Source of the DNA: Branchiostoma floridae
Lineage: Eukaryota > Chordata > Leptocardii > Amphioxiformes > Branchiostomatidae
Direction: 5' to 3'
NCBI RefSeq assembly: GCF_000003815.2
Contig: NC_049996.1
Location: 15,385,161-15,449,160 of the forward strand
Length of the DNA: 64,000 nt
Below are positions 1,381 to 53,200 of this stretch, piece by piece. Numbering within the stretch: the first letter of the stretch is position 1; each line of letters opens with the position of its first letter. A program made the translations under genes and the position numbers. The notes beneath the pieces are model-generated. The model was not told the origin of the DNA and made no database searches. It saw only the letters and a list, made by a program, of their open reading frames with translations.

Positions 1381-1494
1381 TGCAAATATCTTGTATTTTC
1401 AGGTAGGCTTTCACTGCAAGGGTAACCATGGGAACACAGGTTCCGCATTCCGCGTCGCTTCCCGACGGCCTGTTCTCGGGGCTGCCTAGCCTGT
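1381..1494 (+). repeat. Truncated copy of BTB gene first coding exon
   Basis: This stretch is nearly identical to 1828-1950. It repeats the acceptor (TTTTCAG), the 5' untranslated bases, the start codon (ATG at 1428) and about 22 codons of the first coding exon ([10 protein letters not shown] onward). Similarity stops after GGGCTGCCTAGCCTG, and the frame then ends at a stop within about 20 codons. There is no splice donor at the break, so it is probably a dead pseudo-exon. It is one of many exon-edge copies in this gene. Confidence 0.85.
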
Positions 1495-1883
1495 TTATTG
1501 TCTCCGTTTTGTTGTGTAACAATATCTGTATATGTGACAATATCTAACACTTGGGAGGACACTTGACAGCAACATCTTAACTGCAGTGCAAAGTGAAATT
1601 GTCAGAATTGCCTTGAGGAAGGTCGCAGATACGTCAGCTCTTATGTGACTCCCTTGTTGTGGATGAAGAACACTGTTGTTCTGCCTTTGAGATTCCACCA
1701 CATACGATTTGAGACTATGTGTCTGATACCATACTTTTTTTTGTTGAAAATTTTCAGGTAGGCACCACAAATGTTACCTGTCATGCCTTTGAGATTCCTG
1801 GATTTAAAACTATGCATGTAAGTCTGACATTGCAAATATCTTGAATTTTCAGGTACTAGTAGGCTTTCACTGCGAGGGTAACC

Positions 1884-4800
1884 ATGGGAACACAGGTTCC
1901 GCATTCCGCGTCGCTTCCCGACGGGCTGTTCTCGGGGCTGCCCAGCCTGGTCTCTGACCTTCAGAAGCTTCTGGACGATCGCGACACGGCAGACGTGATG
2001 TTCGTGGTCGGGCGGGAGGAGGTTCCTATGTACGCACACAGGCTGATCCTGTGGGCACGGTGTAAGGGGTACCAGAGGTACAAGAGGGACTTCTGGAGCA
2101 AGGTAGGTTTAAGATATAGATTTAATTTGATATACTTGTTACTTTGTACAGTCATGACATCAAGCATAGAAAAATAGAGGCAATAATGAGAATTCCATTC
2201 CTGGAAGTGAAAATGCATATAAAAGTGACATTTGAATTTTGGGCAAATGAAAAATCAGTTGGGGCAAGTCAATTTTTTATGTGCTTGCCCTATAGTAAAA
2301 GTGAATTTTTGGAAACTTGTCCAACCCTGGTACCAGAGATACAAGAGGGACTTCTGGAGCAAGGTAGGCCTATTTTAGGCACTTTCTTCTAGAATTATTC
2401 AATGTTCAAAGATATACGCAGTACCTTTGCTACACTAAAGTCTTGTAAAACAGAAATATGCACACCTAACAAAGGGAGACTTTTTCAAATATCTAATGTC
2501 ATCAGCTAGCTACATGTACAATTTGATAACTGTAAGTTCGTCTTCACAAGTTTTACTGAGAAGAGGGAAGAAGCATGTTGAAATATAGATACACATTTTT
2601 TTTTGTATAAGTAGAACATAAAATATTTCACCTATCATTCTCTTTGTAAAGTTTGTATGCAAATTACTGCATTTAGCCCCAAAGGTATGAGAGAGACTTC
2701 TGGAGTAAGGTAGGTTCAGGGTTGTGTTTAAAACCGGTTGTGTCACTCAAAAGTTAGAGATTCTGGGTTTGAATCCATTTGTGAGCAGGTCTCAATTTTT
2801 TTTCAATTCAGCTTTAGGGCTGCCTACCAAGGCTTGTACATGTACATTTGAATTGTTTTTTGAATGATAAACCAGTCATCATCATCATCATCGTCATCAT
2901 TTTTTTTTAAACAGGTTTGTGCCATGGAATAGTTTTGAATGCCTGAGGCTGAGAGGTAGCATTTTGCCAGCATTACACAACAATGCTATGCCCTTGAGAA
3001 AGGCACTTAATACGAACTCTCACTCCACTTCGTTGAAAATGAGTAATACTATCTATATTTAGTATTTTCAGGGAATTTTTGTTAACGTTACAACATGTCT
3101 GTCCATTTTACAGCTGTTGCCTCATTGTGCTATTTTCCAGGTGACAGGAATGAAGGGAATCATGACCATCAAACAGCCCAAGTACAAACCTGAGGTCTTC
3201 AGGAGTGTTCTCAACTACCTGTACACAGGAAAGGTAGGGGCTCACTATTGTACAGACTACAATGGAAAATAGCAGTTACTCAAGCAACAGAATATGATTT
3301 TGGTGGCATATCTTATTACCTTGATGTCTAATCTTTATCGACGTACAGAGAAAGATATAAGGATGTGCAGCATGTACAATGTATCTTGTGTAACACTTGC
3401 ATAACATTGCAAAGACTAAGGTACAAATTGTACAATGTAGGCACTTCATTCAGGTTTAATCCTCTACCTATATTTCGTACAGATGACACTGAATGATACC
3501 AGTGTTTTAGATAGTTAACTGTGATGTTGTGTGCTATATTTTGTACAGATGACGCTGAATGATACCAGTGTTTTAGATAGTTAACTGTGATGTTGTGTCG
3601 TATATTTTGTACAGATGACACTGAACGATACCACAGTGTTTTAGATAGTTAACTGTGATGTTAATGTGTGCTATATTTTGTACAGATGACACTGAATGAT
3701 ACCAAAGTGTTTTAGGTAGTTAACTGTGATGTTGTATCCTATATTTTGTACAGATGACACTGAATGACACCACAGTGTTTGAGGTGTTAGTGATAGCCCA
3801 GGACATGGGGGTACCAGACTTACAGTACAGCTGTGAGGAACACATCTCCAGTCAGCTGACCGTCCAAAATGGCTGCTTCTTCCTGGCGAATGCTTTAAAC
3901 ACTGTTCCCACGCTGACCACCAAAGGTTGGTTCTGTATTTTGAGATCTGTTTCTTTCTAGAGATATGTTCTGTCGGTCAGACTAGTTGACATGTTTTAGA
4001 TTTTTGATAATTGAATGTAAGGCCACACCAATTTAATTTCTTGGTTCACGGATTTTTTCATAAAGAATATGGAGCGAGAGGGCGAAATAAAAATGAAAAT
4101 AAAAATTGTAAAATGGTTGGGGTAAAGGTAACGGCTAATCCAAAACATAAAGAAAAAAAGTTTTCAGCTTGATAAAAGTACAAAAACACTATTTTTGTAC
4201 AGTAACAGCACCTGTACCCACACTTTAAGGAGCTTATGATATAAAGGCCAATTTGCTACACCAGAAAGTTGGTGAATGGTTTCATTAATGGTGAAAATTT
4301 GCTGAGTGGTAATTTTTATTTTTATTTTTTTTCCCAAAAAATAGGATTGAGCGAATCCGTGAACCAAGAAATTCAATTGGTGTGGCCTAATGTCAAGATT
4401 TTTTTGGGCACCCAATTTCTTTGGCAACCCTGCCAAATTATAGACTAATAGAGGCCTTCTCCACATCTATAAGACGTCTTTTAGGATTCAGCAACGTACC
4501 TATGATCTAGAAAACTTTTTAATACTTTAACAGTACACAGATCTATAAAGATTAGAAAAAACAAGGTTTCTTACATGCATATGTGATCCTTTTCCTTTTA
4601 ACATCTTTATTTAAAACTTTCTTAAGAAGGAGCCAAAGAGATCTACCTCCTTAGGTTAGAAGAGACAGTCTTTTTTTAATTTGTGCATTTGTGAGAAAAA
4701 TCCTTTTTACTTTTGTCTTGACATCTATAAACTTTCTTAAGGAGGAGCCACAGAGATCCATCCCCTTGTTGTCAGATGTCTTCACTTCATCGAGGAAAAT

Positions 4801-7800
4801 GCAGAAGACTGCTTGAGAACGGAAGGGTTCTTACAGCTGCCGAAGGAGTCGGTCATCAGACTTGTGTCCAGTGATCAGGTCAGTTGCTGTTGTATTTTGC
4901 CCCCAAACTTATGAAGAAAACTAACGTTGACAATCTTGTGATTCAGCTAGTTAACTCCATATTAACAACTTTACTTTGGTTCAGCTCCTGCTCGATCCAA
5001 GCTTGAAAGCCCCGTGATATCGTGCGGCGCTGTGGCAGTGTTTGTCGCATACCCTAGAGGTCCTGGGTTCAAAGCCTTTGATATGTCACCAACCTTGCGC
5101 CCTTGGAAAGGCACTTAACATGACTTTCCTCACTTCATTCAGGTGAAAATGAGTACCAAGCTTTAGCTAGGGCCATCCCTCAGATAGGACGTTAAATGGA
5201 AGTCACATGCTTGAGGAGAGCCACACCTACATAACTGACTACATAACAACATAGCAATAAGTAACACTGAGACTGTAAAGTTGTGCCTAAGTTCCTATGT
5301 AATCGATAAATTTTCCAGAAAAAACAATCTTGGTTGTCCAGGCACTTTTTGGCAATACAGCCACAAAACAGTTTCCTTAAGCCCCGTTTACAAATCAAGA
5401 ATTTAGCTCGGCCGAGTTGTCAGCGAGCTCTAAATTACGGGGCTTTACCACATGGTGTAGTATAATTTTCCATAGCAGCTACATTATTCTGACAAAAATA
5501 GGAGAGAAACTACCATGAGCTCAAATTAGTTTGCTAAAGAAACAGTGACTAGGTTAACAATGTAATCAGTGACTTAAAAAAGTTATGGTTTAAAATGCGA
5601 AGTCTTAACATTTTTACCAAATATTTCAGTCTATGATCAGTTCAGTCTATGATAATGTTACATTTATGAAAATTTTTTGAGTAATGTCCATTTATCAGAC
5701 TGTTCTCAAGCAACTTTTACTAAATTTGATCAGGTAAGTTTGATAGTAAAATAAACGTTAAACCCAAGTAATACCAACAACCTTATCAAATATCAAGGAG
5801 ACCTTATTAAGTAACAAGTAAGTAGTAAAAACCAACAACTACCACAACCTCTTAGAAAAATCTTAGTCTGATGTCAAGATGTTACAGTTCTAAATCATGC
5901 TTTACCAAACTCGGTAATTTCTGACTTTCTGTCTAACTACTGTGCCAGGTTTGATTTACCTAACTCAGTCAATGCACCAAAGAACCAATTTGCCCAACTT
6001 TGTGCAGTGGTCTATCAGCTCTACCTGCCTAACTATTGTAGTATACGAATCGGTGTTCCAGAGTAGGTTGCGTTTTGCCATATCTTGACATGACACTAGT
6101 GCCTATGTACTCTGTTTTCTTTCTGTATATATATAGAGACGGGCAAGTCCATCTTGCATGTCTGATAATCTGCCTAACTATTGTAGCATGTGAATCAGCA
6201 TTCCGGAGAAGGATTTGTTCGGTCGTATCTTGACGTGACAGCAAGTGGCGACTATGGCATAGACAGGAAGTGGGCTTCTCTTCAGAGCTTGCCTAACTGT
6301 GTGCAGAGTCTGTTCTGTCAGCTCTGTCTGCCTAACTATCGTAGCGTGTGGATCAGCATTTTGCAGAGAGGTTGCTTTAAAACTTAAATGGCTGTATCTT
6401 GACATGACAGTGCCTATATTCTCTGTTATTTTCTGTATAATATATAGACGGGAAGTCTATCTTGCTTGTCTATCTGCCTAACTATTGCACCCAGACACGA
6501 TGCTGGGGATTGAGCTCTATCTGCCTAACTATTGTAGCATTTGGATCAGCATTGCAGAGAAGGTAGCGTTGGGCCGTATCTTAACATGACAGTGCCTTAT
6601 ATACTCTATTTTCTTTCTGTATATATATATATATATATATATAGACAGGAAGTGGACTTCTCTTCAGTGTTTGCAAAGTCTATCTTGCATGTCTATCTGC
6701 CTAACTATTGAGAATTTCAGAGAAGGTTGCATTTGGTCGTATCTTAACATGACAGCCAGTGGCGTGTAGTACTACATGATACATAAACAGGAGGTTAATT
6801 TGCCTGCATATGTGCTCTTGTGCTCTTAGCTCTATCTGCCTAACTATTGTAGCGTGTGGATGAGCATTCCGGAGAAGGTAGCATTGGGCCGTATCTTGAC
6901 ATTCTCCTTGACGCGGAGCCAGACGCGATCCCGGGGGTTGAGCTGCAGGTACAGGGAGTTGCTGGTCATGGCGTGGCCAGACATGTTCATGCCCTGCTGG
7001 GGAGGGGGGCAGAACACAAAAGTTTAGGATTCCAATCGAAGGACATGTTCCAATGTTCAAGGTCATGAACTTCAAGGCACAAGGTTTGCCCTGACTGAGC
7101 ACTATTGTGCAATGTTCTGAATGATACCCTACTGGGGAGGGGGGCAGAACACAAAAGTTTAGGATTCCAATCGAAGGACGTGTTCCAAAGGTCAAGGTCG
7201 TAAACTTCAAGGCACGGCTCTTCAATAAAGATTTGCCCTGACCAAATGTTGTAGAGGGCTGAAGTTTCACATGTATGATGATGGCGTGGCCGGACATGTT
7301 CATGCCCTGCTGGGGAGGGGGGCAGAACACAGAGGTTTAGGATTCCAACTGAAGAACATTTTCCCAAGGTCAACTTGACACTAATGCATTTCAATAAAGA
7401 TTTGCCCTGACCCTCTATTGTAGAATACCCTGCTGGGGAGGGGGACAGAAAACAAAAGTTTAGGATTCCAATTCAAGGGTATTTTCCAAAGGTCAAGGAC
7501 ATGAAGTTCAAGGCAATTCAATAAAGATTTGCCCTAAAACACTTTTTTGGAAGGACAAAGTTTCACAGGTATATGTATGATGATACATGAACATATCGTC
7601 TCTGTAGGTCAATGAATTAAGTCTAAACCTTTGATATGTCGATGAAAGTTTGACAGACGAGTATATAATTAAGATATGCCAAGTAACAGTTAATCAAGCA
7701 ACTGAATGTGAGTTTTGGCAAATCCTATTTGTTTCCAAAATAAATGATGTTTGGCGAATCCTCTATAGTTCCTCTTTTAGGACTCTATAACTCACTTTTG

Positions 7801-10800
7801 TCCAGGATTCCAGAATGACATATCCATGAAAATTTTTTTTTTTTAAATTTTGGAAACGGCCCAAAATTGATGCGCACGCGGATGTCATCAACATGGCCTA
7901 AAACAACTCCAATGACCGGCAAAGGACATACCTGCAGGGACACGATGGTGACGCCGTTTCTGACCAGCTGGACCGGTTCGTACTGGTTCTCCGGGTGCTC
8001 GCACAGAACGTGGAACGTGAAGAAGTAGATGCCGGGCTTCTCTGACGTGAAGCTGTGGCCATCAAAACCTGCAATAACAAATGGGATCCACCTCAGATGA
8101 AGTCAATTTTAGGATGTTTTTATTTTCCTGGGAATACTGAAGATGCAGAAATATTTGCAGTGGTTTTATGTTTGCATTTTTTTTTGCTGTGGCTGCCTCA
8201 CTGCGAACTCGGAACCACCGCGAACATTTCCATTATAATTTGTAGTATGTGCATGGCGCTACTGCAAACACAAATCCACTGCAAACACTCCAATTTTCTT
8301 GCTGCCGTGAAATAAACCCCGTCAACATAAATGCATTTACAGTAGATATATCTTAATCTTTAGATTACTTTCTTTTCCATACACAATGTGTTCCTTAATT
8401 GTTATTCCGATATTTCCAGACAAGCATCTTTCTTAGTTAATCTTTTTGTCAGGTTTACTGAGTGCAGCAGTTGAGTAGTAGAGTATCATCTTACTCCTTT
8501 CTTGACGTTTCATGCATATTCTTCGGACCACAAGTTTTTTGCTAAAAATGCTGACTGTTTCCAAATTCAAGAAAACGTAATATTCAATATCTACATAAAA
8601 GATCAATAGTTCCATGTTATGATTTTAGCCTTGTTAAACCTTGTACAGTTAAGAACTTCTAGAATACTTCTTGCCCATTGCTTGTGTACGACAGCTTTGG
8701 TTAGTTGAAGACAAGAGAGCAACCATTGATTCCTTGTTGCCATCCAGTAAGGGAAAAAGGACACTGTCATAGCAAAGATCAGCATGTCACTGGAGAGACT
8801 ACTATAATTACTTTCCATTTAATGCCCATTTGGACTTCATTTCTGCATGCCCCCTAACATGCTGCAGACACAGTAAGAAGAATGCATGTACCCCAGCTTT
8901 CTGTCAGTAAGGCCATATTGATTTGATTATATGGATGACATCCGTGCGTTCATCAGTTTTTTTCCGTCCTTAGGAAAAGCAAGTTTTCAACCATATTATA
9001 CTTTTATAGATAGTACAAAGTAGCTGTAAAATGCTGTATATTGCAAAAAAATATCGGAGAACAGACGCTAATGTCATACATTGTACAATGCCAAAGTCAA
9101 TTTCAAAGTCAATGTCAAACAAAATTAAGAATCTATTGTTCGATGTCTAATTTTTTTGGTCAGTTTTAGAATTCCCAGAATATGTCATCCATATGATCAA
9201 ATCAGCCTAATGTAAAACATTTGCACAAGCTTGGTTAAAGGTTTTAACAGCCCAGCAAGTCGGGAGGGGGGCAAGATTTAGGCCTAGGGAATAAATGCTG
9301 TGTTTCCTGTTTCCCTACCTACTCTAGAAAAAATTGCAGACCCTAGACTTTTTTGGATGGGCAGTCACATAACTTCCAGTTAGAATTTTTATTCAACCTA
9401 CTTCCTATTGAAGTAAAAAACACTGCTTGTCCTATTTTCTTCTTCTTCAGGTTGAGATGGCCAACATCGTCATATTGATGAATATGCTAATGAAGGATAA
9501 AAACTATCTATTATGCTCAACATTCAAGTTTGACATTGAAAGACAAGTGTTGCATGCATTTTCTCTTTTGTTCAACTGTATTGTGATATGTATCACTAGA
9601 GGTTTGGGCCAGCCTTAAAGAAATCACAAGAAAAAAAGATAGCCCCTACCTACCGACCCTAATTTTTCAGGACTGAAACAGGAGACAACATTTTTTTCCT
9701 TTGCCTTATTAAACCTAAGTTAGGTTTTAACAGCCCGGCAAGTCGGGAGGGGGGCATGATAATGATTAAGAGCAAAATCAAGGCTGGCTGTGTCAAGACC
9801 ACCCACCTCCTGTTCCCCGGTGACCTCTTGGTCGAGGTTTTTCTGTGAACAAAGTTAACAATGTGGAAACTTTAATCTGTTCAGTCAGGCTGAAATTGGT
9901 CAAGTTTAAGTCTTAGAGTATATCATCGGGACTAGTTAGTGATGCTTGCGCATTGCTGAAAGTTCAGAGAAAGATTGTATCATAGTTTTCCTAACATTTT
10001 AAGCGTTGAAACACCACCTGCAAAGCAGGTTAGTGCAGGTTGTGCACTGTTGTAACCTGCATCTAATATGTGCCAGCCACATGCAGCATTCAATAATTTG
10101 ACAGCATATAAGGTGGCATCAGGACCACATTTATACATTTTTTTATGGACTGTAAGAAATCAAAAAGAGTAAGAATTTGAAAAAATTGTAAAATATTAGA
10201 TTATACAATGTATCTATCTGTGTAGTTGCACATTTGAGAATGGTTTGACTATAGAATGAGACTGTTGAATACTAAGCTTCAGAAGGAGTGATCTGTGTGC
10301 ATTTGCTCACCTGTTCCTGTGTTTATAAGCACTTTGTCGAAGATGATCCTATCCTGTCCGCTGGGCCCGCTCCCAGTGTGCACCGCTGAGAACACCACTG
10401 GCACAGTATCCGGTTTTGGGGTCACCTCAGGTCGTCGTCGCTGCGGGAATATCCGCTTGATGTCCTCCTCGCTGAGGCCAGGTCCAGGCGGCCCCGGCGG
10501 GCCAGCGGGACCCTGCGGCCCAATCTGCCCGGGTAACCCGGTTGGGCCGATCCACCCCTGTTCGCCTTTGCTGCCGGGAATGCCCGGGCCGCCGATGGGA
10601 CCGGGGCTGCCGGGAGCGCCGATCGGGCCTGGGGTTCCCGGCGACCCGGGTTGACCCGGGGGTCCTGGTGGCCCGGGGTAGCTGCTGTAGCCAGACTGCG
10701 AGCCAGGCTGGGTGTACCCGGGTGTGCCCGGGGGACCTGGGTCGCCGCGGGCTCCTTTGTCTCCTTTTGCGCCCGGGACGCCGGGAGCACCCAGCATACC

Positions 10801-13800: not shown

Positions 13801-16800
13801 CTTTAAACTTCCTACGTTACACCAAAATTTGTTCCAGACAACCAGTGTAGTACAACCATCCTGTGGAGCTGCTTAAATTTTTATTTTCTGCATTTGTGGG
13901 GAAGTCTAGGGGCCATAGGTGGGATTCCAAGGCAGACCCTATCTTTACTGTGAGTTTAAGACCATGGTGCACTCAATGTATCTAAATCAAATCAGGCATG
14001 CCTTTTTCTGTTAGACCTATTGAGCTATTTTAATTCACCATTAATCATATATATCGTTGTATAATACCTAAAGATAGCACAAAGAAATGATTCTTGTCAA
14101 TATAATGGTTCAAAGACTACCACTACCATTTAGACTCTTATTTTAGGAAAGAAGACCTATTTTGCATTACTCTGTCGGTTGGAAACCAGATACTAGGAAA
14201 CTTCTAATTGAAATTTGCTCTGTGGGTTAAAGTTTCAAGTTTTGTATCCTGACATTTTGATCTCTGGGTTAATATTCTTATTAAGATTCGGATGTTAGAA
14301 TAGATAGATGAAGTACACATTGCAATATTTAAGTATAGCAAAGGTGACAACAAAGAAATATGTCATTAGAATTTTTTAAAGGAGATTTGTCATGCCATTC
14401 CTCACAAAAATGCTTCACACCACATACCAGTAAACAAATCAAGATAACTTTAGCGTTGTGCAGTTTCGGCTGCATGTCTGGCTTGCAAAAGCATGTTATG
14501 GCTTAAGGCCTTACCAATTGTATACATCGCTTATCAGCACTGTTGAAATAAAGATCATAATTTAGCTTTATTTCTCTTGTAATGTTGTATTGTTTCAAGT
14601 TTAAACTACAGCAGTTTTTCTCATCTAAATTAGAGAATTTATGTGACATGTAAACATGTCATTATCACCTAGTCTTTCAGGTGCTGGGATAAAATCTCTG
14701 CAGTTTCTATAAAACTACAATCAAGAAAAGTTTGGACTATCCTCCAGCAGCTATTCATTGCAAAAGGCATGTGGTTAAAATTTAAAAGTACTGCAGCTCA
14801 CCATGGCTACAAAGTTTGCCCCCCTCCCACTGTGACACCAAGTGTAGTGCCTCTGAATAAGGACCCCCTTGCCCTTAATTCACTGCGAAGTCAAAATCAC
14901 GTCTGTGGAAATGTGAATTGGTTTAAAGTAACTGTTGCCAGGCCTTGCCATATGACCCGTCAAAGGCTAAAAGTACTGTCTTTACGTCTGCACACACATC
15001 TACGAATGTTCTAGATGTGGTGAGTTATGGGGACCTGTGTTGCATTATGCTTCTTTGTCTCTTATTGTCACCAGGTTTTTCTGGTTACAGTAGCAGGTTA
15101 TCAGGTGTAGTGAGCATTGGGCTCAGAACCAATAAGTCCCTAGTTCAATACTTGTGCCCTTGGGAAAGGCTCCCACTCTGTCTCAGAGTGAAAACAGGTA
15201 TCTGATTTGGGGTGGGGAGGTAAAAGGCAGGAGAAGGAGAGGGCTCTGTCTTGCCCTTCCAATAATGTACCCTAGACACACTGTCTATTCAGGAAGCTAT
15301 GTATGCCACATGGCTGCCTCATCATATACTATTAGATGTTTCATGCCCGGCTGGGTGTCAGCCTTTTTAGCTTTACTCTGCTCTCTCTGTCTCTTTCCTA
15401 CATGTAGTTACGTAAGCGGAACAAAGCTACATGTATACGAAGGCAGGCACCCAGGCTATGTTTCCTAGCTGCAAGAGACTTGTATTATATTGTATTATCA
15501 TGGTTACATTCTGTGTTCTTTGTCTAAATACAGTTACAAGTCATTGGACAGATATTTAAGTTAAAGATGAGATGCCAAAACTACATTGTGTAATATTAGA
15601 CTGTAAGTTTTGTTATTTGTACATTGCCATACATTGTCACTGATGCAATTGTTGCACAATAGATCCATCCATCAATCCATCCATTCCTAATCATAATCAT
15701 AATCAATGCTTGTGTTGCTGCAGCTTGCCCTGGAGGAGGAGGAGGTGTGGAGACGGGTGCTGGCCTGGGCCAAGTACCAGGCTAAGGTGGAGAGCTCCCC
15801 GCAGAGATGGAGCCCTGAGGAGAAGGCTCGGGTGTGCCAGGTAGGTTCACTTTCTACAGGTGTGCCAGGTAGGTTCACTTTCTACAGGTGTGTGGCAGGT
15901 AGGGTCACTTTCTACAGGTGTGTGGCAGGTAGGGCCACTTTCTACAGGTGTGTGGCAGGTAGGTTCACTTTCTACAGGTGTGTGGCAGGTAGGGTCACTT
16001 TCTACAGGTGTGTGGCAGGTAGGGCCACTTTCTACAGGTGTGTGGCAGGTAGGTTCACTTTCTACAGGTGTGTGGCAGGTAGGGTCACTTTCTACAGGTG
16101 TGTGGCAGGTAGGGCCACTTTCTACAGGTGTGTGGCAGGTAGGGTCACTTTCTACAGTTGTGTGGCAGGTAGGGCCACTTTCTACAGGTGTGTGGCAGGT
16201 AGGGCCACTTTCTACAGGTGTGTGGCAGGTAGGGCCACTTTCTACAGGTGTGAGGCAGGTAGGGTCACTTTCTACAGGTGTGTGGCAGGTAGGGTTACTT
16301 TCTACAGTTGTGTGGCAGGTAGGGCCACTTTCTACAGTTGTGTGGCAGGTAGGGCCACTTTCTACAGGTGTGTGGCAGGTAGGGTCACTTTCTACAGGTG
16401 TGTGGCAGGTAGGGCCACTTTCTACAGGTGTGAGGCAGGTAGGGTCACTTTCTACAGGTGTGTGGCAGGTAGGGTCACTTTCTACAGTTGTGTGGCAGGT
16501 AGGGCCACTTTCTACAGGTGTGTGGCAGGTAGGGCCACTTTCTATAGGTGTGAGGCAGGTAGGGTCACTTTCTACAGGTGTGTGGCAGGTAGGGCCACTT
16601 TCTACAGGTGTGAGGCAGGAAGGGTCACTTTCTACAGGTGTGTGGCAGGTAGGGCCACTTTCTACAGGTGTGAGGCAGGAAGGGTCACTTTCTACAGGTG
16701 TGTGGCAGGTAGGGCCAATTTTTACAGGTGTGTGGCAGGTAGGGTCACTTTCTACAGGTGTGTGGCAGGTAGGGCCAAGTACCAGGCTAAGGTGGAGAAC

Positions 16801-19800
16801 TCCCCTCAGAGATGGAGCCCTGAGGAGAAGGCTCGGGTGTGCCAGGTATGGTTCACTTTCTACAGGTTTCTCCAGGTTGCGGGAAAGCAGAAATGCCCAC
16901 TTGCACACTTACACACTTACACTTACTTAGGGAGTGAGTGACACTTACAAACACAACCACATTTTGCTTGGTGCAACATGGCTGAAAAAAAACACTAGTG
17001 CCAGGTACAGTCACTTTCCACAGGCTTCTCCAGTTGTCACCACGAGGGGGATGACAGCAAATTTTCCCTAGCTTTTCCTTTGTAAAGTCAGAAGAGTAAC
17101 GACTTTGTATACATTGCACCAAACTATAGCATGATAGAAGGCACACAGATATTACTTAATGACAGTAATCTCAGTTCTATGCACCTCCTTACTTCTTACT
17201 ATGTTAGACATTCATCAGAAAGATAGATGACAAATAACCTTTGTGTCTGTTTCTTTCAGCACCTGTCTGGAGTGATAGAACATGTGAAACTGCTGCTGAT
17301 AGACAGTAAGGTGTTTGCTGAAGAGGTGGAGCCCACTGGAGCTGTGCCCATGGAGCTATCACTGGAGAGGTAAACAAATAATTCAAAACCTAATAAAAGA
17401 GTATCTTCATTTTTCTGGTCTGTCTGCACTGTACCAGACACATGAATAAGTAAACTATATAAATTATGTGTTCACACTGCTTTGACTTTGTTGCACTTTT
17501 GACAGCCCAGAAAGACCTTCCAGGGTACTGAGAACATTTGGTTTAGGTAGACAGGTGTGGTCACTTATTACTATTAGACAAGATTCTTTTAAGAATGCTT
17601 GCTGTGTCATCAAAAAGTGGTCACATTTCCAAGGTCATCTTTATGTGGAGGTGGGTACTTGTACGGGTCTTTCTGAGTCAAATGCTGAGTGCTTAGGCAA
17701 GAAAGCAGCATGTACCCTTTGCTATGATGTACCCCACTCAATAGATAAAGGTTCCAACCATCCATGACTCGGTGGGGATCAAACTCATGACCTACCCAAC
17801 ACTCTCCAGGGCTCGAAATTCATTTTGGGGATTAGGTGCACTGGTGCACCCAGCTTAAAAAATTGGGTGCACCAAAAACATTTTGGGTGCACCACTTAAA
17901 TTTCAGTAATAACCTTATAATAAAACTTGGTTACAAGCTATCAAATCCTTAAACAAGTACCATGACAGACATTTTATTCTCTTTCTAACACTTAGAATAT
18001 GATGCATACTAGTATACTTTGATATCTTTACATACATAAACCTAAGAAAATATTTGGGTGCACCCTGTGCACCCACAGAAAATAATTGGGTGCACAGCTC
18101 CAATTTTGTGTGCACCTAGTATTTCAAGCCCTGGCTCTCCAATACAAGTCAATAACAACAGGATTGTGATGCTTTGTCCCCAGGTATCGCATTGCAGCTG
18201 TACCCACAGGACTGAAGAACAGCAGAGACAGGAGGCTGACCCCCAGAGTCTCCCACAAACTCTTCAAAGGGACAGACATCCTGAGCAGGGAGAGACTGCC
18301 TCTACAGAGGGTACTCAACCAATGGTAAGGACCTGCCTCTGTAGAGCCTTTTGATGTAATGTGTTATCTACAGTTTTGACCATGTTGGTGTCCCCATTAG
18401 CATTGGACAGACATTCTGAGCAGGGAGAGACTGCCTCTGCAAAGGGTACTCAACCAATGGTAAGGACCTGCCTCTGTAGAGCCTTCATGTAATGTGTTAT
18501 CTACAGTTTTGACCATGTTGGTGTCCCCATTAGCATTGGACAGACATTCTGAGCAGGGAGAGACTGCCTCTACAAAGGGTACTCAACCAGTGGTAAGGTC
18601 CTGCCTCTAAAGAGTCTTTTCATGTGATGTTCTGTCTACAATGTCAGCCATGTTGGTGTCCCTATTGGCATTTTATTATATCATAGCTGAAACATGTTTG
18701 GATGGACATTCTGATCAGGGACAGACTGCCTCTACAAAGGGTACTCAACCTATGGTAAGGTCCTGCATCTAAAGAGCCTTTTAATGTAATGTGGTGTCTG
18801 CTTTGTCGACCATGTTGGTGTCCCCATTAGCATTTCATTATATCATAGCTGAAACATTTTTGGACGCACATTCTGATCAGGGACAGACTGCTTCTGCAAA
18901 GGGTACTCAACCAGTGGTAAGGTCCTGCCTCTATGGAGCATTGTAAAATGTGACCTGCACTGTGTTGGCCATGTTGGTGTCCCTTAAAGTCATAGCTGAA
19001 ACATATTTGAACAGACATTCTGAGCAGGGAGAGACTGCCTCTACAAAGGGTACTCAACCAATGGTAAGGGCCTGCCTCTGTAGAGCCTTGTCAAATTCAA
19101 ATGATGTAACCATGTTGGTCTCCCTATTAGCAATATATATCTGAACCATTTGGAGCTATCAAGCAGCTTTCTGTAAAACTGTATAAAAAGTTTGATCAAT
19201 AGCATTATGCAGTGTTGTAAGCAGTAAGATTGTTTCCCAAGCTCTTAAGGTAGACAAGCCAGAAGTTAATAATTGCTAATCAGGTACAAAGGAAAATTTA
19301 GAAAGAAGAGGAAAAGTAGACCACACAACCTTGGTATACCTCAGTATGTTAATTAGGTAATGTAATCCGAGTTGTTCTTTGAGTGTCTACCATCTTGCTC
19401 CATAGTGCAGCCCTGCTGTAATAAAGGTCCACGTTGTGACAGTTTCTGAGGGACCCCTTTGCAATCCTTGTGTACTTAACTGGTGTTATGTTTTCCCGTT
19501 GTGTTTAACCCCAGGTACGGGGACAGTAAGCAGGAGTGGAGACTGCTGTACAAGGCGTCCAGAGACGGTTACACGGCCGATGCATTCCACCAGAACTGTG
19601 ACGGTTTCAGCCCCACCATTGTGCTCATCCTGGTGAGTTGGTCGTTTCACATGAGCGCCACCTAGTGACTTTTGCTATTATTACATAAGTCTGGACTCTT
19701 ATGAACATGTTTAATATGTTACTATCATGTCCTGTTGATATATCTGCCTATGTTGGTCAATTTATATACAACTCTTTTAAAAACGGGGAAAATATCATAC

Positions 19801-25492: not shown

Positions 25493-25705
25493 GACAGCAA
25501 TATTAGAACAACACGGTTGAACACGTTTTCATATTCCATTATCGCCGTATTTGCATGAGTTTCTAATACAATGAGAAAATGCATTTTCTCGGCATGACTT
25601 GTACTGTGGATTAGACAGCAATATCCCAACAACACGATTGAACATTCAAACTGTGGTTTCCTTTTCCGTAATCATCGTGTGACACATTTGCATGAGTTTC
25701 GTCTC
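25493..25705 (-). repeat. Duplicated tail of kinase copy 1
   Basis: The last codons and the 3' flank of kinase copy 1 (25605-25705) are duplicated, with decay, at about 25493-25575. Shared pieces are ACAGCAATAT, AACAACACG, TTGAACA and ATTTGCATGAGTTTC. The outer copy has lost the reading frame and stop context. Confidence 0.65.
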
Positions 25706-33028: not shown

Positions 33029-33067
33029 ATTGCGGCCACGATTGTGCAAAGAAAGTAAGCAAAGCAA

Positions 33068-37200: not shown

Positions 37201-37582
37201 TTTCACACGTCTCGTTGTACACAGGAGGATAGCCCAAAACGTTTCTCACATTTAATTTGATACTGACGACATGGTGACCAGGGTCTTGTAGCCCTCCGAC
37301 ACGAACCTTTAAAAGATACTCCGACTGTACTGACCAGTCCAGTGGCCTGGCCACCACAACTGTGCAGTTCGTACTCACAGAGAAGCGGCCATAGCGATCA
37401 CCCTCCAACATCACACACGGAAGTTCCGCTTTCTCCTCTCCCAACAAAGTCGGCAAGTTGACAACGCCTGTTCCAATCTTGGCATTTTCAGACACAGAAA
37501 CGGTCAAGTTGATACCTTCATCGGCCTGACAAATTAGACAGCAAAGACCCAATAGAAGGAAAGTCTGGTAGTTACTTGTCAT
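34291..37582 (-). CDS. Receptor tyrosine kinase copy 3, 946 aa, 2 exons
   Basis: Exon 1 (37582-35717, 622 codons) starts with a different signal peptide from copies 1 and 2 (MTSNYQTFLLLGLCCLICQ). It then follows the shared order: cadherin-like, unassigned region, EGF, Ig-like, EGF x3, TM. Exon 2 (35265-34291) starts VESDLAQ and encodes the kinase with GMGRFGHV, VAAKEV, HGDVAARNVL and DFGQAG. The 451-bp phase 0 intron matches copy 2 in position and sequence. The Ig and EGF part is very similar to copy 2. The unassigned region between the cadherin-like repeat and the first EGF is the most diverged (for example ELYQRAWNLNISC), pointing to ligand-side divergence. One membrane-proximal EGF has changes such as KTCRCFNDASC. 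The kinase tail is short, without an obvious adaptor-binding cluster. Confidence 0.9.
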
Positions 37583-45100: not shown

Positions 45101-48100
45101 TGCGTATGTGCATGTGTGGATGTGTGTGTATGTTTGTGTGTGCCTGTGTTTGTGTGCGTATATGTATGTATGCAAGTATGTGTGTGTGTGTGTGTGCGTA
45201 TGTGTGTGTATGTTTGTGCGTATGTGTATGAGAGTGTGAATGTTTGTGCTTGTGTGCTTGCTTGCGCAAGTGAATGTTGACTGTTAATGTGTGTGCTTGT
45301 GATTGTTACAGTGCACGCGTGTGTATATACATAAACAATTAATACTTTTGTGTTGACAATTTCCATCACCTAAGGTATTCTCTAACCTATAAATACGGCG
45401 GGTAAGAATACTGTCAAGTATTAGAAACACGCTTCCACTCACCATTTCAGACGAACCACTCACGGACCGAGCCACACTGCAGAACAGGACAAGGAGAAGT
45501 TGGGTGAGAAGCTTCCCCCATGGATGAGTGTGGGGACCCTGGAAAGGGCCATTAAGGTGAATATGAATGATTTATTACAAATTCATGCCTACATTTTCTA
45601 TGATAGGTTGATTCGATGATCTTAGTAGGAAGAGTTTAGAATGAAAAGCTTGGTATGATTTCGGACACTCTCTCATATACTTAAATGTAAGTTCATCTGT
45701 GACGGTATATCCGTACACAAAATAAAGCGCTTACCAACAAGCTTATCAATCAGTCCACTGATCCTTATCAAGTTGAAATGACCCAAAGCCTATGTCAAGC
45801 GTCCAGACCAGAATTGTGACGTCAGCAATGGATCAAAGGTGCTTGGAAGTCGGTATCGGCCCCCGACACGGATGAGAATAGTCTGTTTCTTTCGGCATCG
45901 AATCGGGAACATTCACAAATGAAACGTGTCTCATTTTCCACTGCATCTAGACCACCATAGCAACACTGAACCATGACATGTGTCTCATTTTCCACTGCAT
46001 GAAGACCACCATAGCAACACTGAACCATGACATGTGTCTCATTTTCCACTGCATGAAGACCACCATAGCAACACTGAACCATGACATGTGTCTCATTTTT
46101 CCACTGCATCTAGACCACCATACATGTAGCAACACTGAACCATGACATGTGCCTCATTTTCCACGGCATCTAGACCACCATAGCAACACTGAACCATGAC
46201 ATGTGTCTCATTTTGCACCGCATCTAGACCACCATAGCAACACTGAATCATGACATGTGTCTCATTTTCCACCGCATCTAGACCACCATAGCAACACTGA
46301 ACCATGACATGTGTCTCATTTTCCACTGCATCTAGACCACCATAGCAACACTGAACCATGACATGTGCCTCATTTTCCACGGCATCTAGACCACCATAGC
46401 AACACTGAACCATGACATGTGTCTCATTTTGCACCGCATCTAGACCACCATAGCAACACTTAACCATGACATGTGTCTCATTTTCCACCGCATCTAGACC
46501 ACCATAGCAACACTGAACCATGACATGTGTCTCATTTTCCACTGCATCTAGACCACCATAGCAACACTGAACCATGGGAAACCTGACTGCGTCTTGACCG
46601 CTATTAAGAAGGACTTTCTGAAGGTCAAGAACAAACTCGGGATAGATTTGGCCGAAGATTTGGACAGGTTTGTATCTTAAGTTTGAATATAACGAATGGT
46701 TCGTGACGAGAGGTAATGCATTTTTATCATTTTTTTTACTCTAAAGGGAAAAGCAGACAGAGAAAGTAACATTGAATAGATACAGGTAGAGTCAATTTCA
46801 CTTCTTTCCTGCTAAAAATTTATGTAGACTTTCAATGCTTGCATTACGTCAGAAATGGAAGCAGAAATGATTACATTAATGAAAAAAGAGACAGAACAAT
46901 AATTGTAACAGACTTAAATAAATACAAACATAGAAACAATTCGAAGTTGTTACTCTGAGAGTGTAAGGCAACCTCCGTCGACAGAGTATTGTAGTCGGTC
47001 TATGTCTTGAGTGTCCGCACCTATATCTCTATGTTCCGTTTGCCGCAGTCGTATGTGGTTTGGCATGTCGTGCGCGATTATGCACTTTTTTCGGTAGCTG
47101 TTGTTATAATCGAGGTTTTTGTTTCTTCTCCAACCAGGCTGAACAAGTACAAATGCGAGGTGTTCGCCAACAAGTTCCTGTGCCTGCGACTGGGCCCGCT
47201 GTTCCAGGAGAACCTGGAGGACATGAGGTGGAGAGGGGTGGCGCTGGCACGCGCTAGCGACGCCGACGTGCTGCCGTCCAAATGGTGAAGCTTGTTTTTG
47301 TTTATGTGTTTGTTTGTTTGTTTATATCCTTATCTGGAGGAGATGAGGTGGAGAGGGGTCGCGCTGTCACGCGCTAGCGACGCCGACGTGCTGCCGTCCA
47401 AATGGTGAAGCTTGTTTTTGTTTATGTGTTTGTTTGTTTGTTTATATCCTTATCTGGAGGAGATGAGGTGGAGAGGGGTCGCGCTGTCACGCGCTAGCGA
47501 CGCCGACGTGCTGCCGTCCAAATGGTGAAGCTTGTTTTTGTTTATGTGTTTGTTTGTTTGTTTATATCCTTATCTGGAGGAGATGAGGTGGAGAGGGGTC
47601 GCGCTGTCACGCGCTAGCGACACGGACGTGCTGCCGTCCAAATGGTGAAGCTTGTTTTTGTTTATGTGTTTGTTTGTTTGTTTATATCCTTATCTGGAGG
47701 AGATGAGGTGGAGAGGGGTCGCGCTGTCACGCGCTAGCGACGCCGACGTGCTGCCGTCCAAATGGTGAAGCTTGTTTTTGTTTATGTGTTTGTTTGTTTG
47801 TTTATATCCTTATCTGGAGGAGATGAGGTGGAGAGGGGTCGCGCTGTCACGCGCTAGCGACACGGACGTGCTGCCGTCCAAATGGTGAAGCTTGTTTTTG
47901 TTTATGTGTTTGTTTGTTTGTTTATATCCTTATCTGGAGGAGATGAGGTGGAGAGGGGTCGCGCTGTCACGCGCTAGCGACGCCGACGTGCTGCCATCCA
48001 AATGGTGAAGCTTGTTTTTGTTTATGTGTTTGTTTGTTTGTTTATATCCTTATCTGGAGGAGATGAGGTGGAGAGGGGTCGCGCTGTCACGCGCTAGCGA

Positions 48101-49472
48101 CACGGACGTGCTGCCGTCCAAATGGTGAAGCAACAAGCTTGTTTTTGTTTATTTGTATGTATGTATGTTTGTTTGTTTGTTGTCATCCTTATGCACTGCC
48201 GTCCAAATGGTGAGTCAAGAAGATTGTGTGATTTTCTTTGTTTATGTCCTTATGGTGTAACACACCAGGTTTGTACTGAACAGCACAAGCTGCATATCCG
48301 GACAGACTTAATTGATCCAATCACATATACACCAGGAAGGGCTCCTGCTCTTTTCGATAAGTGTGGTGGGTTCTTTTACATGCTCGAGGCGTGGCTCTCT
48401 TCAAACACGGGACCTCAATTTAACGCCCTAGCTGAAGCTTGGCACTCATTTTCACCTGAAGTGAGGAGATCCATATAAAGTGCCTTTCAAAAGGGCACAC
48501 ATCGGAGCACATCAGGGTACGTGAACACATGACCTCTGGGCTTGGAGGCAAACACCTTTCCTTTTCACGGATGGTGCGGGAGAAGAAGGATCAAGAAGGA
48601 GTGGAGTCGGTAGTTTGTGTGGCAGGTGATGGGCAATCTTGACGCTGATTTTACCAACCCCACGTGTTGCAGGTATGCCAGTCTGAAGACAGAGTGTGAA
48701 GAGGTGGCCGTCCAGTTTGCTAACGAGCTGAACAAAGTGCTGACAAAGCTGGCCATGTTCTCATTGGAGGATGCGAAGAATATTCCAAACGCGATGGTGA
48801 GATGCTTTTACGCTTTAGGCGAAAGTTTAACTCTAAATCCCAGGTGAAAGTTTAAGTCCTTCCTCCAAATGATGCATAGGTCAGCAAGTCTACGAAAACC
48901 TCGCCTTCCGCACTGGTGTCTAAACGGTCTCAGCACTGGTTTTCTAGTGCTGAATGTTCGTCAGCACTCGGTTTCCAGTGCTGAAGCAGGCGTTTCCAGT
49001 GCTGAGAGGGCGTCAGCACTGGAAAACCAGTGCTGACGAACATTCAGCACTGGAAATCCAGTGCTGAAGCCATATACAGCACTGGATTCCAGTGCTGAAA
49101 AAGGAGGGTGAGGTTTTCGTAGTTTTTCCATAGGGCATCGCCCATCTCCGTTTGTGTTGCCCTGGGCCACACAGCTTGGCGTGCGGGTGCAACTATTTTA
49201 CTCTGAAGATCAGTGTGTGCAATTTTAAATTTGGTATGACCTGGCCGGTGATCGTAGTCAAAACTTCATTGACTGTTTCAATTGTATTTTTTCCCAAGGA
49301 AAAGCTGTGCCTTCTAGTGATGTCCCTCCCTGCGGACATCGTTAGCTCGAAGACCATGCAGGAAGCGCTGTTCTTTGTCGTGGAGCGCATGTTAGACGGA
49401 CATGGGGAGCTGTTAGCACACTGGTTCCAACAACGGAAGCCATCATTGGTGTTCAACATTGGCACAGGCTGA
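39180..49472 (+). CDS. CCDC60-like protein (tentative), 667 aa, 14 exons
   Basis: Exons: 39180-39288, 39724-39827, 40738-40805, 41112-41268, 41807-41935, 42562-42748, 43514-43659, 44144-44311, 44791-45059, 45451-45556, 46552-46667, 47138-47284, 48673-48796 and 49299-49472 (stop TGA). All are GT/AG and all phases agree (2004 nt). No signal peptide or TM. The N-terminus is histidine-rich (a run of HHHH, P, seven H from CAT repeats), and exon 9 has GHGHGHGHG. The middle is basic and low-complexity. The C-terminal ~200 residues look helical (LKKDFL-like AIKKDFLKVKNKLGID, KWYASLKTECEEVAVQF, EALFFVVERMLDGHGELL). Order and spacing of motifs such as MPNLFSVLGHI, KWYASL and a final LLAHWFQQR recall CCDC60 (DUF4698) from memory, unverified; CCDC60 has no established function. 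The exon 11 acceptor is the least certain junction because it lies in a 54-bp array. Exons 11, 12 and 14 have tandem edge copies. Confidence 0.75.
40445..40589. mobile_element. Foldback MITE, TAGTCTCCAAGCAG ends
   Basis: TAGTCTCCAAGCAGGCATGA on the left pairs with TGCAAGATCTGCTTGGAGAT on the right. The inner arms ATCATAAGCTGGGGAAGGAG and its complement are nearly perfect, so the whole 145 bp would form a hairpin. It shares ends with 11781-11953. It lies in the intron before exon 3 of the CCDC60-like gene. Confidence 0.75.
40610..40700 (+). repeat. Interspersed repeat tail, CGAAACGTCG type
   Basis: CCTGAAGAAGGTGACAGTCG, then CACCGAAACGTCGGTGGGAA and AATAAAG, resembles the 3' end of dispersed metazoan retroelements. 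A related GACAGACATCGAAACGTTGG occurs near 44692. No open reading frame is associated. Confidence 0.4.
41322..41440. repeat. Dispersed repeat copy A
   Basis: GTAACACAGCAGGTTTGTAC, then TGAACAATACAAGCTGCATA and TCCGGACAGATT, matches 48255-48310 at high similarity. Neither copy has coding capacity. The element class is not identified. Confidence 0.5.
43107..43336. mobile_element. Foldback MITE, 230 bp
   Basis: GATCCTGTCTAACGCCATAT, then CGAACAAATAGAAC, pairs with GTTCTATATGTTCGATATTG and CGTTCGACAGGATC. Inner TTCTGTTTTGG / CGAAACAGAATA and AACACCTCCGTCAAAAA / TTTTTGGCGGAGGTGTT arms also pair. Non-coding; it lies in the intron before exon 7 of the CCDC60-like gene. Confidence 0.75.
43950..44113. 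mobile_element. pogo/Tigger-like MITE with TA duplication, 164 bp
   Basis: CAGTAGAAGCCAGTTTATTG, then CAC, on the left pairs with GTGCAATTAACTGGCTTCTA and CTG on the right. TA flanks both ends (43948-43949 and 44114-44115), giving the typical Tc1/mariner-pogo signature. It ends 30 bp before exon 8 of the CCDC60-like gene, so it supplies part of that intron's 3' end. Confidence 0.8.
44323..44715. repeat. Composite repeat in intron 8 of CCDC60-like gene
   Basis: It starts with a single MITE end (AGTCTCCAAGCAGATCCTAC). It then has an inverted pair, AACGTTTCGATGTCTGTCAG (44428) and CTGACAGACATCGAAACGTT (44686), flanking about 240 bp. The inverted pair suggests a separate element with CATCGAAACGTT arms. 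Confidence 0.55.
45070..45300. repeat. (TG)n-rich microsatellite
   Basis: Imperfect TG/TGTATG tract directly after the exon 9 donor of the CCDC60-like gene. The open frames on both strands here are a by-product of dinucleotide composition. Confidence 0.9.
45557..45950. other. Intron 10 of CCDC60-like gene before the array
   Basis: Non-coding. No element with defined ends was found, only ordinary intron sequence leading into the 54-bp array. Confidence 0.4.
45951..46580 (+). repeat. About twelve 54-bp units, each with a splice acceptor
   Basis: The unit is ACCACCATAGCAACACTGAA, then CCATGACATGTGTCTCATTT, then TCCACTGCATCTAG. The T/C-rich stretch before CTAG resembles a 3' splice site, and the exon 11 frame (TTIATLNHGKPDCV) only works if splicing uses the last CTAG at 46548-46551. 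The array therefore repeats the exon 11 acceptor. Units alternate variants (GTGTCTC / GTGCCTC; CACTGCATC / CACCGCATC / CACGGCATC). One unit has an 8-bp TACATGTA-type insertion (about 46118). In-frame TAG ends each unit on the + strand; the - strand stays open by chance. Confidence 0.85.
46668..47137. other. Intron 11 of CCDC60-like gene
   Basis: Ordinary AT-rich intron with no element recognised. It ends with the acceptor TTTCTTCTCCAACCAG. Confidence 0.5.
47221..48124 (+). repeat. Eight 120-bp units of exon 12 end plus donor
   Basis: The last ~64 nt of exon 12 (ATGAGGTGGAGAGGGGTSGC ... CTGCCGTCCAAATG), its donor GTGAAG and 56 nt of intron (AGCTTGTTTTTGTTTATGTG, GTTTGTTTGTTTATATCC) are repeated seven times after the genuine end at 47284, almost without change. 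A GACGCCGAC / GACACGGAC difference alternates in the last six copies (pairs 2-3, 4-5 and 6-7), implying a 240-bp higher-order unit. Each copy keeps an intact donor. Confidence 0.95.
48125..48660. other. Intron 12 remainder with dispersed repeat copy B
   Basis: It has a (GTTT)n tract, a short further copy of CACTGCCGTCCAAATGGTGA (about 48195), then dispersed repeat copy B at 48255-48530, related to 41322-41440 (GTTTGTACTGAACAGCACAA, GCTGCATATCCGGACAGA). No coding exon is seen. Confidence 0.5.
48890..49122. mobile_element. Foldback element E5, CAGCACTGG motif, 233 bp
   Basis: Outer ends CTACGAAAACCTCGCC and GTGAGGTTTTCGTAG are complementary. Between them are about eleven half-sites of CAGCACTGG / CCAGTGCTG in both orientations, several as near-perfect palindromes (CAGCACTGGAAAACCAGTGC). 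There is no coding potential. It lies in the intron before the last exon of the CCDC60-like gene. Confidence 0.75.
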
Positions 49473-49680
49473 ATGGTGGCCAATCAGCTGTACTGTAACA
49501 TATCTCCGGTTCCAACAACGGAAACCGTCATTGGTGTTTAACTTTGGCACAGGCTGAGTGGCAGCCAATCAGCAGTACCGTAACATATCCCTGGTTTCAA
49601 CAACGGAAGCCGTCATTGGTGTTTAACTTTGGCACAGGCTGAGTGGCAGCCAATCAGCAGTACCGTAACATATCCCTAGA
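49423..49680 (+). repeat. Three units of CCDC60-like last-exon end
   Basis: The final codons and 3' flank (GGTTCCAACAACGGAAGCC ... GGCACAGGCTGA, CCAATCAGC) are repeated at about 49423, 49509 and 49593, spacing about 85 bp. Each unit has the in-frame TGA-like segment. Only the first unit is translated. Confidence 0.85.
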
Positions 49681-49889: not shown

Positions 49890-50260
49890 AGTTGACAACT
49901 TTTACAGCCAGTACTACTTTACTCTTCTGTTTGTAGCATTTCAAACTGATCGGACAATGTGAAAGGGTCAGCTTTTACAGCCGGCAATACTTTACTCTTC
50001 TGTTTGTAGCATTTCAAACTGATCGGACAATGTGAAAGGGTCAGCTTTTACAGCCGGTATTACTTTACTTTTCTGTTTGTAACATTTCAAACTGATCGGG
50101 CAATGTGAAAGGGTCAGCTTTTACAGCCGGCACTACTTTACTCTTCTGTTTGTAACATTTCAAACTGATCGGACAATGTGAAAGGGTCAGTTTTACGACT
50201 GGCACTACTTTACTCTTCTGTTTGTAGTATTTCAAACTGATCAGACAGTGCGAAAGGGAA
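49890..50260 (-). repeat. Five units of MALSU1 last-exon end, about 74 bp
   Basis: On the - strand each unit encodes the SDQFEMLQTEE-stop segment followed by AGTAGTGCCGGCTGT-type flank. Plus-strand marks are TACTTTACTCTTCTGTTTGT and TTTCAAACTGATCGGACAAT. The genuine stop is at 50210-50212; the other four units lie downstream and would be in the 3' untranslated region. Confidence 0.9.
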
Positions 50261-53200
50261 GTTCAGGAAACTGATGTCGCGTGTTTGGTCGTCGTACTCC
50301 GATCCGAGCGTCCAGAGTTTTTCCAGCTCGTACTTCTCACGAGTCTCGGGGAGCATCATGTGCAGCGCTATGTTACCTGCAAAACGATGGAGGGACTGTC
50401 ACAAAGCGTCAATCTTTTACACCAAACAAAATCTATTTTGACACAATCTTTAACACATTTAGAGCTCATCTGTAGCAGTCAGAACATCTATCAAGAAGGA
50501 TATTTAAGGGGTTAAGGATATCCTAATGCAAGGAAATAGCAAATTCAATGAAAGGAGGATTTTTAACACCCGTAGTGAGGCTTTACAGTGAATATCTCTT
50601 TATCCATATTGTTTGGTATAGTGATATCATTGCCTTAGGAAGAACAACATCTGTTCTGAATCCTACTTTCCTTTTGAAACATTTACACCAAGGGATGCAT
50701 ACTCAGGGCTCGAAATACTTTTTCCTGCATACCTGCCCTGATGTAGGTAACATTGAAAATTTCCTGCACCAGACAGACTTTACCTGCACCACTCTGAATT
50801 TAGGAAGTATGGATCATACTGAAATTGTTCAGTAACCATTATTCTATACTTAATAGGTGGTAACAGTCAATGCAGCTAATTACAATCCACATGCACCTAC
50901 ACCATAGGATATTTATGTATAAAACCCAGTACATAGACCAGTGCAGGTTAGGTGCAGGTAGACACCAGAAATACCTGCACAGCTCCAATTTTACCTGCAC
51001 TAACCTGCTTATGCAGGTGGTATTTCGAGCCCTGATACTACTAGCCTGAGCACTATACTCTGTAGTGACTGCTGGCTAAATTGAGCCAGCGGTCACTTAC
51101 AGAAGATGGTACTCAGTGGTTTAGCAAGCAAAAAAATTGAGCCAGCGGTCACTACAGAGGATGGTACTCAGGTTAGCATACTACACTGTACAAAGAAATT
51201 ACAGTAATGATATATCTTTATTGTTTCCCGTAAGACATACCCAGGTCAATGGCCATCCAGTCATCACAGTCCGCTCCTTCTACTGTCACAAACTTGTCCC
51301 TGGCACCTTTCCGGTCTTTATGCTGTACAAGGAAAGCAATGAAACATTTACCACAAGAATGCTGAATCACAAGGTATAGCTTAAAGGTCACCAAAACATC
51401 AGTCAATAAAATCTCGTTTGTGTTACTTGTGCTTGTGCCGCTAAGGGAGCGGTCACTAGTGCATATGTACACACAACTCTGTATGAGTTGCATATTGGCA
51501 TTCATTTTGGTTTAGGTAAAGTTTCCAAGGAAGATGTTGTATTTTACAAATGTACTTTGACTTTTACAATGCAGCTTGGTTATCAAACCAGAGATCAAAC
51601 ACAAATTTTTGGCCGCAAACTTTACCAAAACCAAGAAAAAAATGTACATATGGAACTCTTACGGATTTGCATACATGTATAGGCACTTGCATAACTGGTC
51701 CCTAAGAAAATATCAATCAAGATACTATTCGAATTTTCCCCTGCCATGCTCAAGCTCCTTACTCAGTTTCACATCAAAACACCTTAGCCAAGGTCTGTCA
51801 GTGCCAGTCAAAGCTGAAGTGAAAGGATACGACGACTGCAATTCCTGTACTTTTATGTTCACGTTTTTCACAGTGACGACTGTAACATGAACTTATCATT
51901 ACATATAACAAATAATTCATCTTGGTGACGATAGCAAATATTTTGTTCACTGTGAACATTTAGATCTGAGAACAAGCTAAACTTTCTCAGACCGTGAAAG
52001 TTTGGTACCGAGAAGACAATTAAGTGAAGTACAACTTATTCAGAGTTAAACATACCAGACTTATGACATACTGTGCAATGGACTTCAGATGTCTGGTGGA
52101 GGAACCGCTCACAATAACCAGGAAATCCACATACTGCAGGGACTGTATAGAAGGAGAGTGAACAATATAAACAAACAAACAAACAAACAGAGAGGACAAA
52201 CAGATGGTCAACAAATACTAGGAAGCTTTAATGGGCATTTTGCTCACTTATCACTGTTTTGGGGATAGCAAACTCAAATGATAAGTGATACTTGTATGCT
52301 GATAACGTATTTAACGTTGCACATGTGCCCAATACACCCTGTCTTAACATCAATATTACTTCAAGAATCAACAGAGTAAGATTTTTGTTTCTATATTATG
52401 AGCTTAGTATAAGATATTAGATTAAGAAACGTTATGTAGAAATACTAATCTATAATGTAATATTAGTGTAATAAGCCCTTTCACAGATATCAGAACGCAC
52501 GTGTGGCGACAGGAAGTCTAGGTAATATGTTAAAGTTCAAGGTCTTGAAAAAGAAAACAGTCCTTGTCTCGACCATTGTTTCCATTTGCCTAACAATGTC
52601 CAGACGGGTTTTGTTTACTTTTTGTGGGACTTTACCTTTGACATATTACGTAAAATTCCTGTGGCCGCACATGCGCCCTGATCTCTGTAAGAGGGTTTAT
52701 GAGATTAAGTATGTAGAAATACTAATGCGATATTTAGCGCAATACACTATACTTAATATTTGAATATGAGACTTACCACAGGCACTTTGATAACACAGAT
52801 ATCCTTGGCGTTTTCTCCCCGTAACTCCTCCACAAGTTCATCAATGGTGAACACCCCCTTCAGCCTGGCTGTGGAGCAGACGGGGAACACAATCATCAAT
52901 GTTGCATAACGAGAGACATGTGTAACATTATAATGTAACATTACATGGCCATACAGTCATAGATATAGCTTTGTCCAAGCAGACGCGTCAACCATCTATC
53001 TATCAACCGGTCAGTTCACTCCTAGGCCAGAAACTGCTAGCCTGATTAAATCTCGCTTATAGCAGGCCGCCCAACATGCCTGGTTACAGCCTTGTCCCTG
53101 GACAGCGGAGTTTGTGTTATACAGACTGAATAACTGCTACTAGGATTTTATTCCTTACTTGGCAAAACCCCAATATTACTATTCGGCCAACCCTCAGTCT

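Follow-up and report, generated by a model that had tools for sequence, protein, structure and literature searches.

Does tandem copying in the amphioxus genome start preferentially at the ends of exons? The question is raised by a 64,000-nt stretch of Branchiostoma floridae DNA (G000:C18:15385161-15449160; hereafter, the window), in which a sequence-only reading had noticed at least ten duplications that each include a splice site, a start codon or a stop codon. Two explanations had been offered: either copying is triggered near exon edges, or duplications occur everywhere and those derived from exons are the ones that stay recognizable. Here, we relate local duplications to exon edges both in the window and in other genes of the same assembly (513,431,437 bases searched, in 431 contigs).

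Genes of the window

On the plus strand, eight exons of a BTB-BACK-TLD gene join into a single open frame with GT-AG sites and, once joined, match the BTB, BACK and TLD domains of Pfam. A collagen/C1q gene (5987-11424, minus strand), recognized by a Collagen match and by a C1q domain in two joined exons, is nested on the opposite strand in intron 4 of the BTB gene. The minus strand further carries three tandem receptor tyrosine kinase genes (25646-37597)—copy 1 being a single open frame of 986 aa—with the kinase domain matched in copies 1 and 3 and copy 2 assigned through its DNA similarity to the others. Adjoining this cluster is an open frame (22252-23253, minus strand) with a match to DUF3504 and another, under the cut-off, to QRICH1. 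MALSU1 (minus strand; exon supported by an RsfS match) and a Fuseless-like gene were likewise identified through Pfam. The naming of the CCDC60-like gene is weaker: none of nine single exon stretches matched Pfam, and of three pieces of joined exons one (four exons) matched DUF4698, which we take to be the CCDC60 family, at an E-value of 0.00097 and with 18.6 bits, under the cut-off of 28.6. A scan of the window against Rfam at gathering thresholds returned zero matches. Outside any annotated gene lies a tandem array of 42/64-bp units (59994-60263).

Local duplications at exon edges

Self-alignment of the window, blind to genes (blastn, plus strand, spacing ≤1500 bp, ≥45 bits), yielded 19 families of local duplications. 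Twelve of them, distributed over four genes, contain an exon edge, that is, a splice site, start or stop:

1377..1949 (+): BTB gene start, two copies (1377-1493 and 1827-1949; 91% over 123 nt); the downstream one holds the genuine ATG (1884), the other a decoy ATG (1428)
2068..2716 (+): BTB exon 1 donor; genuine boundary 2102/2103, decoys at 2364 and 2710
3467..3789 (+): BTB exon 3 acceptor array; unit of ~66-71 bp, four decoys and then the genuine site at 3754
4614..4767 (+): BTB exon 4 acceptor at 4745, one decoy at 4630 (87% over 39 nt)
15767..16877 (+): BTB exon 5 donor at 15841; ~31 units, 30 bp each, come after it
18270..19151 (+): BTB exon 7 donor (18325), five decoys, units of 133-162 bp
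5987..6902 (-): C1q stop-codon end; genuine stop 6844-6846, six decoys downstream in the sense of the gene
6968..7572 (-): C1q last-exon acceptor; boundary 6993/6994, decoys upstream in the sense of the gene
45919..46576 (+): CCDC60-like acceptor (46552), 11 decoys upstream, 54-bp unit
47214..48131 (+): CCDC60-like exon end (donor or stop), AAATG/GTGAAG at 47285, seven decoys
49421..49677 (+): stop end of the last CCDC60-like exon, itself without a Pfam match; TGA 49470-49472, two decoys, 85-bp unit
49896..50258 (-): MALSU1 stop-codon end; TAA 50210-50212, four decoys, 73-bp unit

Eleven of the thirteen cases named in the sequence-only reading were thus borne out, given our reading of its exon numbers. 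The BTB gene start, the donors of exons 1, 5 and 7 and the acceptor of exon 3 all emerged from the blind alignment, the MALSU1 array was found with its four decoys, and the three CCDC60-like arrays correspond to named cases if their edges are those of exon 11, exon 12 and the last exon. For the C1q gene, the acceptor and the stop end held, while the 5′ flank did not, its duplication (11412-11550) ending 3 nt before the start codon. The tail of kinase copy 1 also fell away: the pair found there (25493-25523/25614-25644; 31 nt, 87%, 39 bits) adjoins the stop rather than crossing it. The duplication at the BTB exon 4 acceptor is an addition to the original list. Nor did the claim that every multi-exon gene is affected stand, as the self-alignment shows no edge-containing family in the Fuseless-like gene or at kinase copies 2 and 3. 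A further pair (44344/44810) has no edge either, beginning 19 nt inside an exon.

The repeat unit crosses an exon-intron boundary in seven of the twelve families (eight if 47285 is a donor), at donors (2103, 15841, 18325) as well as acceptors (3754, 4745, 6993, 46552), and a start or stop end in the remaining four. In 12/12 families the genuine edge occupies the exon-side end of the array with the decoys on its non-coding side, an arrangement that is nearly true by definition. Counting a decoy only when 17 of the 24 bases around the site matched, we found the splice dinucleotide (AG or GT) kept in 62 of 64 splice-site decoys; 32 of the 64 belong to the exon 5 array. At the BTB exon 1 donor, for example, both decoys (97.5% over 40 nt and 87% over 38 nt) retain AG/GT, and AG is intact in all four decoys of the exon 3 acceptor, an array defined by TRF and self-blast. 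The C1q acceptor has decoys at 7128 and 7306 plus a further related copy at 7399-7496. Splice-site decoys and genuine sites score similarly, and strength by itself is therefore unlikely to set the two apart.

One array of ~31 units follows BTB exon 5. Each of its 30-bp units carries a CAG/GTAGG-like donor together with an acceptor-like site resembling TTTCTACAG; GT is intact in 31 of 33 copies (the genuine one included), and at the end of the array exon 5 recurs in part, with a donor of its own. The stretch 15703-16941 (plus strand) is open throughout in the frame of exon 5, and use of a decoy donor would therefore add residues in tens. This openness is no sign of coding, since two further frames, one forward and one reverse, are open as well. 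A genome search with this array gave one candidate with one match, its own locus, and hence no second haplotype to set beside it; the C1q arrays likewise matched their own locus only. For the two arrays upstream in the CCDC60-like gene, one of them built of 120-bp units with copies 98% alike, no array match elsewhere was present among the best 40 of 562 genome candidates; all 40 other matches of this query fall in a dispersed repeat (46947-47116) situated between both arrays.

Edge excess within the window

An annotated edge lies inside 12/19 families, compared with 3.67 expected under random placement (49 edges; p ~1e-5), or 3.96 expected when three extra edges are added. The excess over chance that had been suspected in the window is therefore there, with the reservation that we drew up the edge list after having read the earlier claims, which makes the p-values for the window post hoc. 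The list is without the first exons of the CCDC60-like gene, several donors and any exons at 47300-48670. With the same three edges added and gene spans alone considered, 12 of 15 families hold an edge versus 4.88 expected (p 2e-5; both counts with added edges also treat as an edge the 5′ limit of the open frame of kinase copy 1). It is the BTB/C1q span that accounts for the excess, eight of ten families there holding an edge (2.7 expected, p 1e-4), whereas in the CCDC60/MALSU1 span the figure of four in five (2.93 expected) is not significant (p 0.27).

Counting covered bases gave a weaker result than counting families. Of the 50 listed edges, duplications cover 11, where shifts average 5.4 and reach this value in 4.8% of cases; for splice sites alone the count is 6/42 versus 4.6, reached in 33% of shifts. 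Start and stop ends are covered in five of eight cases. Coverage of gene-span positions (21%) exceeds that of splice edges (14%). Edge copying in this window is nevertheless real and statistically notable.

Edges in kinesin, myosin and P450 genes

We then turned to genes selected by Pfam kinesin or myosin matches and blind to repeats, comprising 48 loci (26 kinesin, 22 myosin) and 228,744 bases. Edges were set by splice-site scores near the ends of domain matches, 54 of the 307 through a fallback rule; all 307 possible edges were placed, under a rule that would skip matches adjoining N stretches. Two tighter placements (117, then 253 edges) were dropped, having missed a real donor duplication in one kinesin gene (L045). 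With 307 edges, 3 of 21 duplication families held an edge versus 6.1 expected, and seven edge positions were covered. Four of these seven sit in decoy copies of a second kinesin gene (L051), and their exclusion left 303 edges with three covered. On this basis, 3/21 families held an edge versus 6.0 expected (upper-tail p 0.98, lower-tail p 0.08), and duplications covered 3/303 edges versus 4.7% of intron points. At 40 bits the count was 4 of 26 families versus 6.66 expected. Loci with an edge family numbered two of 48, or three of 48 at 40 bits. A mild avoidance of edges in the sample, of the kind expected under selection, is thus possible, with the difference below significance. Five P450 loci, several of whose edges are low-scoring, contained no local duplication, and 0/24 of their edges were covered. 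The intersection of arrays with exon edges that the sequence-only reading had itself proposed for the whole genome, run on these 48 plus five loci, therefore gave no edge excess, which speaks against triggering at edges.

All three edge families of the sample belong to the two kinesin genes, one gene having two of them, and their anatomy is that of the window, with an acceptor affected in L051 and donors in L045. Such arrays thus occur elsewhere in the genome, but across the sample edges are not favored. In the 28 fetched kinesin/myosin loci, a Markov-shuffled control gave 0 pairs versus 41 in the real sequence. Duplications cover 3.8% of these 28 loci compared with 11.6% of the window. The proportions of families with an edge differ between window and sample (12/19 versus 3/21; Fisher p 0.003), a gap for which post hoc choice, a local wealth of duplications or weaker constraint on the window genes may account in part.

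Relation to published mirages and to intron gain

The window arrays are new examples of a known phenomenon. Amphioxus "mirage" minisatellites, along with the idea that they give rise to introns, are in print (PMC3087553): that paper describes them in Adh3 and in the globins BflGb6 and BflGb9 and cites troponin C, and PGBD5 was added as a further case (PMC3902484). Globin units are given there as 150-160 bp and those of Adh3 as 10-72 bp (PMC3087553, PMC3902484). Published mirages and window arrays share tandem copies across exon boundaries, at 5′ and 3′ ends, and AG/GT kept in many copies, with diverged units of like length. The window differs in that start- and stop-codon ends are involved too, and in comprising twelve families in four genes. 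A globin search of the genome returned nine matches. Our limited literature search turned up no genome-wide test of edge preference in mirages.

In the Rogers model, as cited in PMC3087553, an intron is gained through tandem duplication of an exon containing AGGT, and a potato RdRp gene is reported as a case of gain by tandem duplication (PMC4974935). The duplicated units of the window contain AG/GT, as in the model; unlike in the model, the arrays lie inside existing introns or flanks. Among the window arrays we found no recognizable new intron made of duplicated exon.

In the window we found a single intron that is not common to all paralogues, and it belongs to the kinase genes. It occupies one shared position in copies 2 (430 bp) and 3 (451 bp), with 87% identity between the two, and is exactly missing from copy 1. 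Gain of this intron by tandem duplication was considered and found no support, the best exon-intron match reaching 17.5 bits (E 0.66 or worse). The suggestion that such copying is a route to new introns is a published model, and this intron resembles its flanking exons at no significant level. Within the copy 2 intron (30706-31136, minus strand), a stretch of ~200 bp is matched in 38 other places among the best 40 of 569 candidates. A search for kinase paralogues gave 138 rows (best 150 of 553 candidates). Among these listed paralogues, 62 rows, copy 1 included, cross the intron point unbroken, and in four listed genes (copies 2 and 3, C13:12712619 and C1:28321099) both halves separate at it; several listed rows of 33-37% identity end near the intron point, and other genes break elsewhere. 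A single gain followed by later losses would fit this distribution.

Origin of the arrays

Taking together what was observed—arrays with intact decoy signals, placed to one side of the genuine edge, and no edge excess in the test sets—we consider it probable that the arrays are mirages produced by ordinary local tandem duplication, without detected edge preference outside the window, that survive where their copies fall outside the exon. We infer that slippage or unequal exchange would create short local tandem duplications, for whose placement no preference for edges was detected outside the window. An array crossing an exon end would persist under selection if its extra copies landed in intron, UTR or flank, and the genuine edge would then remain at the exon-side end. 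Splicing presumably still uses this edge, through exon definition, despite the similar decoys, and the window is a region locally rich in tandem-duplication events. Against this explanation stands the strong enrichment of the window itself (12 of 15 gene-span families versus 4.88), and the test sample is narrow, consisting of two conserved motor families and a few P450s.

Recognition bias, by which duplications arise everywhere and purifying selection on the exon copy keeps exon-containing pairs recognizable for longer, is compatible with the explanation above, and we hold it to be possible, if somewhat doubtful. Its support is mild: decoys are closer to the genuine copy on the exon side in 9 of the 11 families compared (the exon 5 array being left out), most clearly at MALSU1 and BTB exon 1, but the difference is small (Wilcoxon p 0.08), with a tie at the C1q stop and a reversal at the C1q acceptor. 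Moreover, some arrays (47214-48131, with copies 98% alike) are so recent that decay can play no part, and the bias should act in the kinesin/myosin sample too, yet no excess appeared there.

Seeding of duplications by the exon edges of some genes, with transcription-linked structures or breaks located at splice sites or at the ends of genes as conceivable triggers, would make these hot-spot genes; it appears unlikely. It draws on the strong excess of the window, where 12/19 families touch an edge (8/10 in the BTB/C1q span), and on the clustering of the sample's three edge families in just two kinesin genes. The same sample, however, shows no excess over its 48 loci (3/21 families versus 6.0 expected, 3/303 edges), nor do the five P450 loci (0/24); kinase copies 2 and 3 lack edge families, and the CCDC60/MALSU1 excess is not significant (p 0.27). 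The proposal that duplication is triggered at edges thus keeps its footing in the window, and the other genes tested lend no support to seeding at exon edges. We likewise see little likelihood that a subset of amphioxus genes has true edge hot spots, comprising the BTB-TLD/C1q and CCDC60/MALSU1 loci and mostly not the conserved motor genes. An assembly artefact, with repeats misjoined or expanded, is very improbable: the copy numbers of the 98% identical and the 30-bp arrays are taken as assembled, but copies in most families differ by several percent (best identities of 83-97%), which duplication during assembly would not yield, and independent kinesin loci show the same anatomy.

Implications for amphioxus genes

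The window adds a dozen examples of mirages in four genes, stop- and start-codon ends included, and the sample argues that mirages are tandem duplications overlapping exon ends rather than products of edge-triggered copying. Were hot-spot edges real, they would constitute standing variation, with splice signals intact, for new exons or introns. Mirages are a natural setting in which to test how decoy sites come to be ignored by the spliceosome, as well as a candidate source of new introns.
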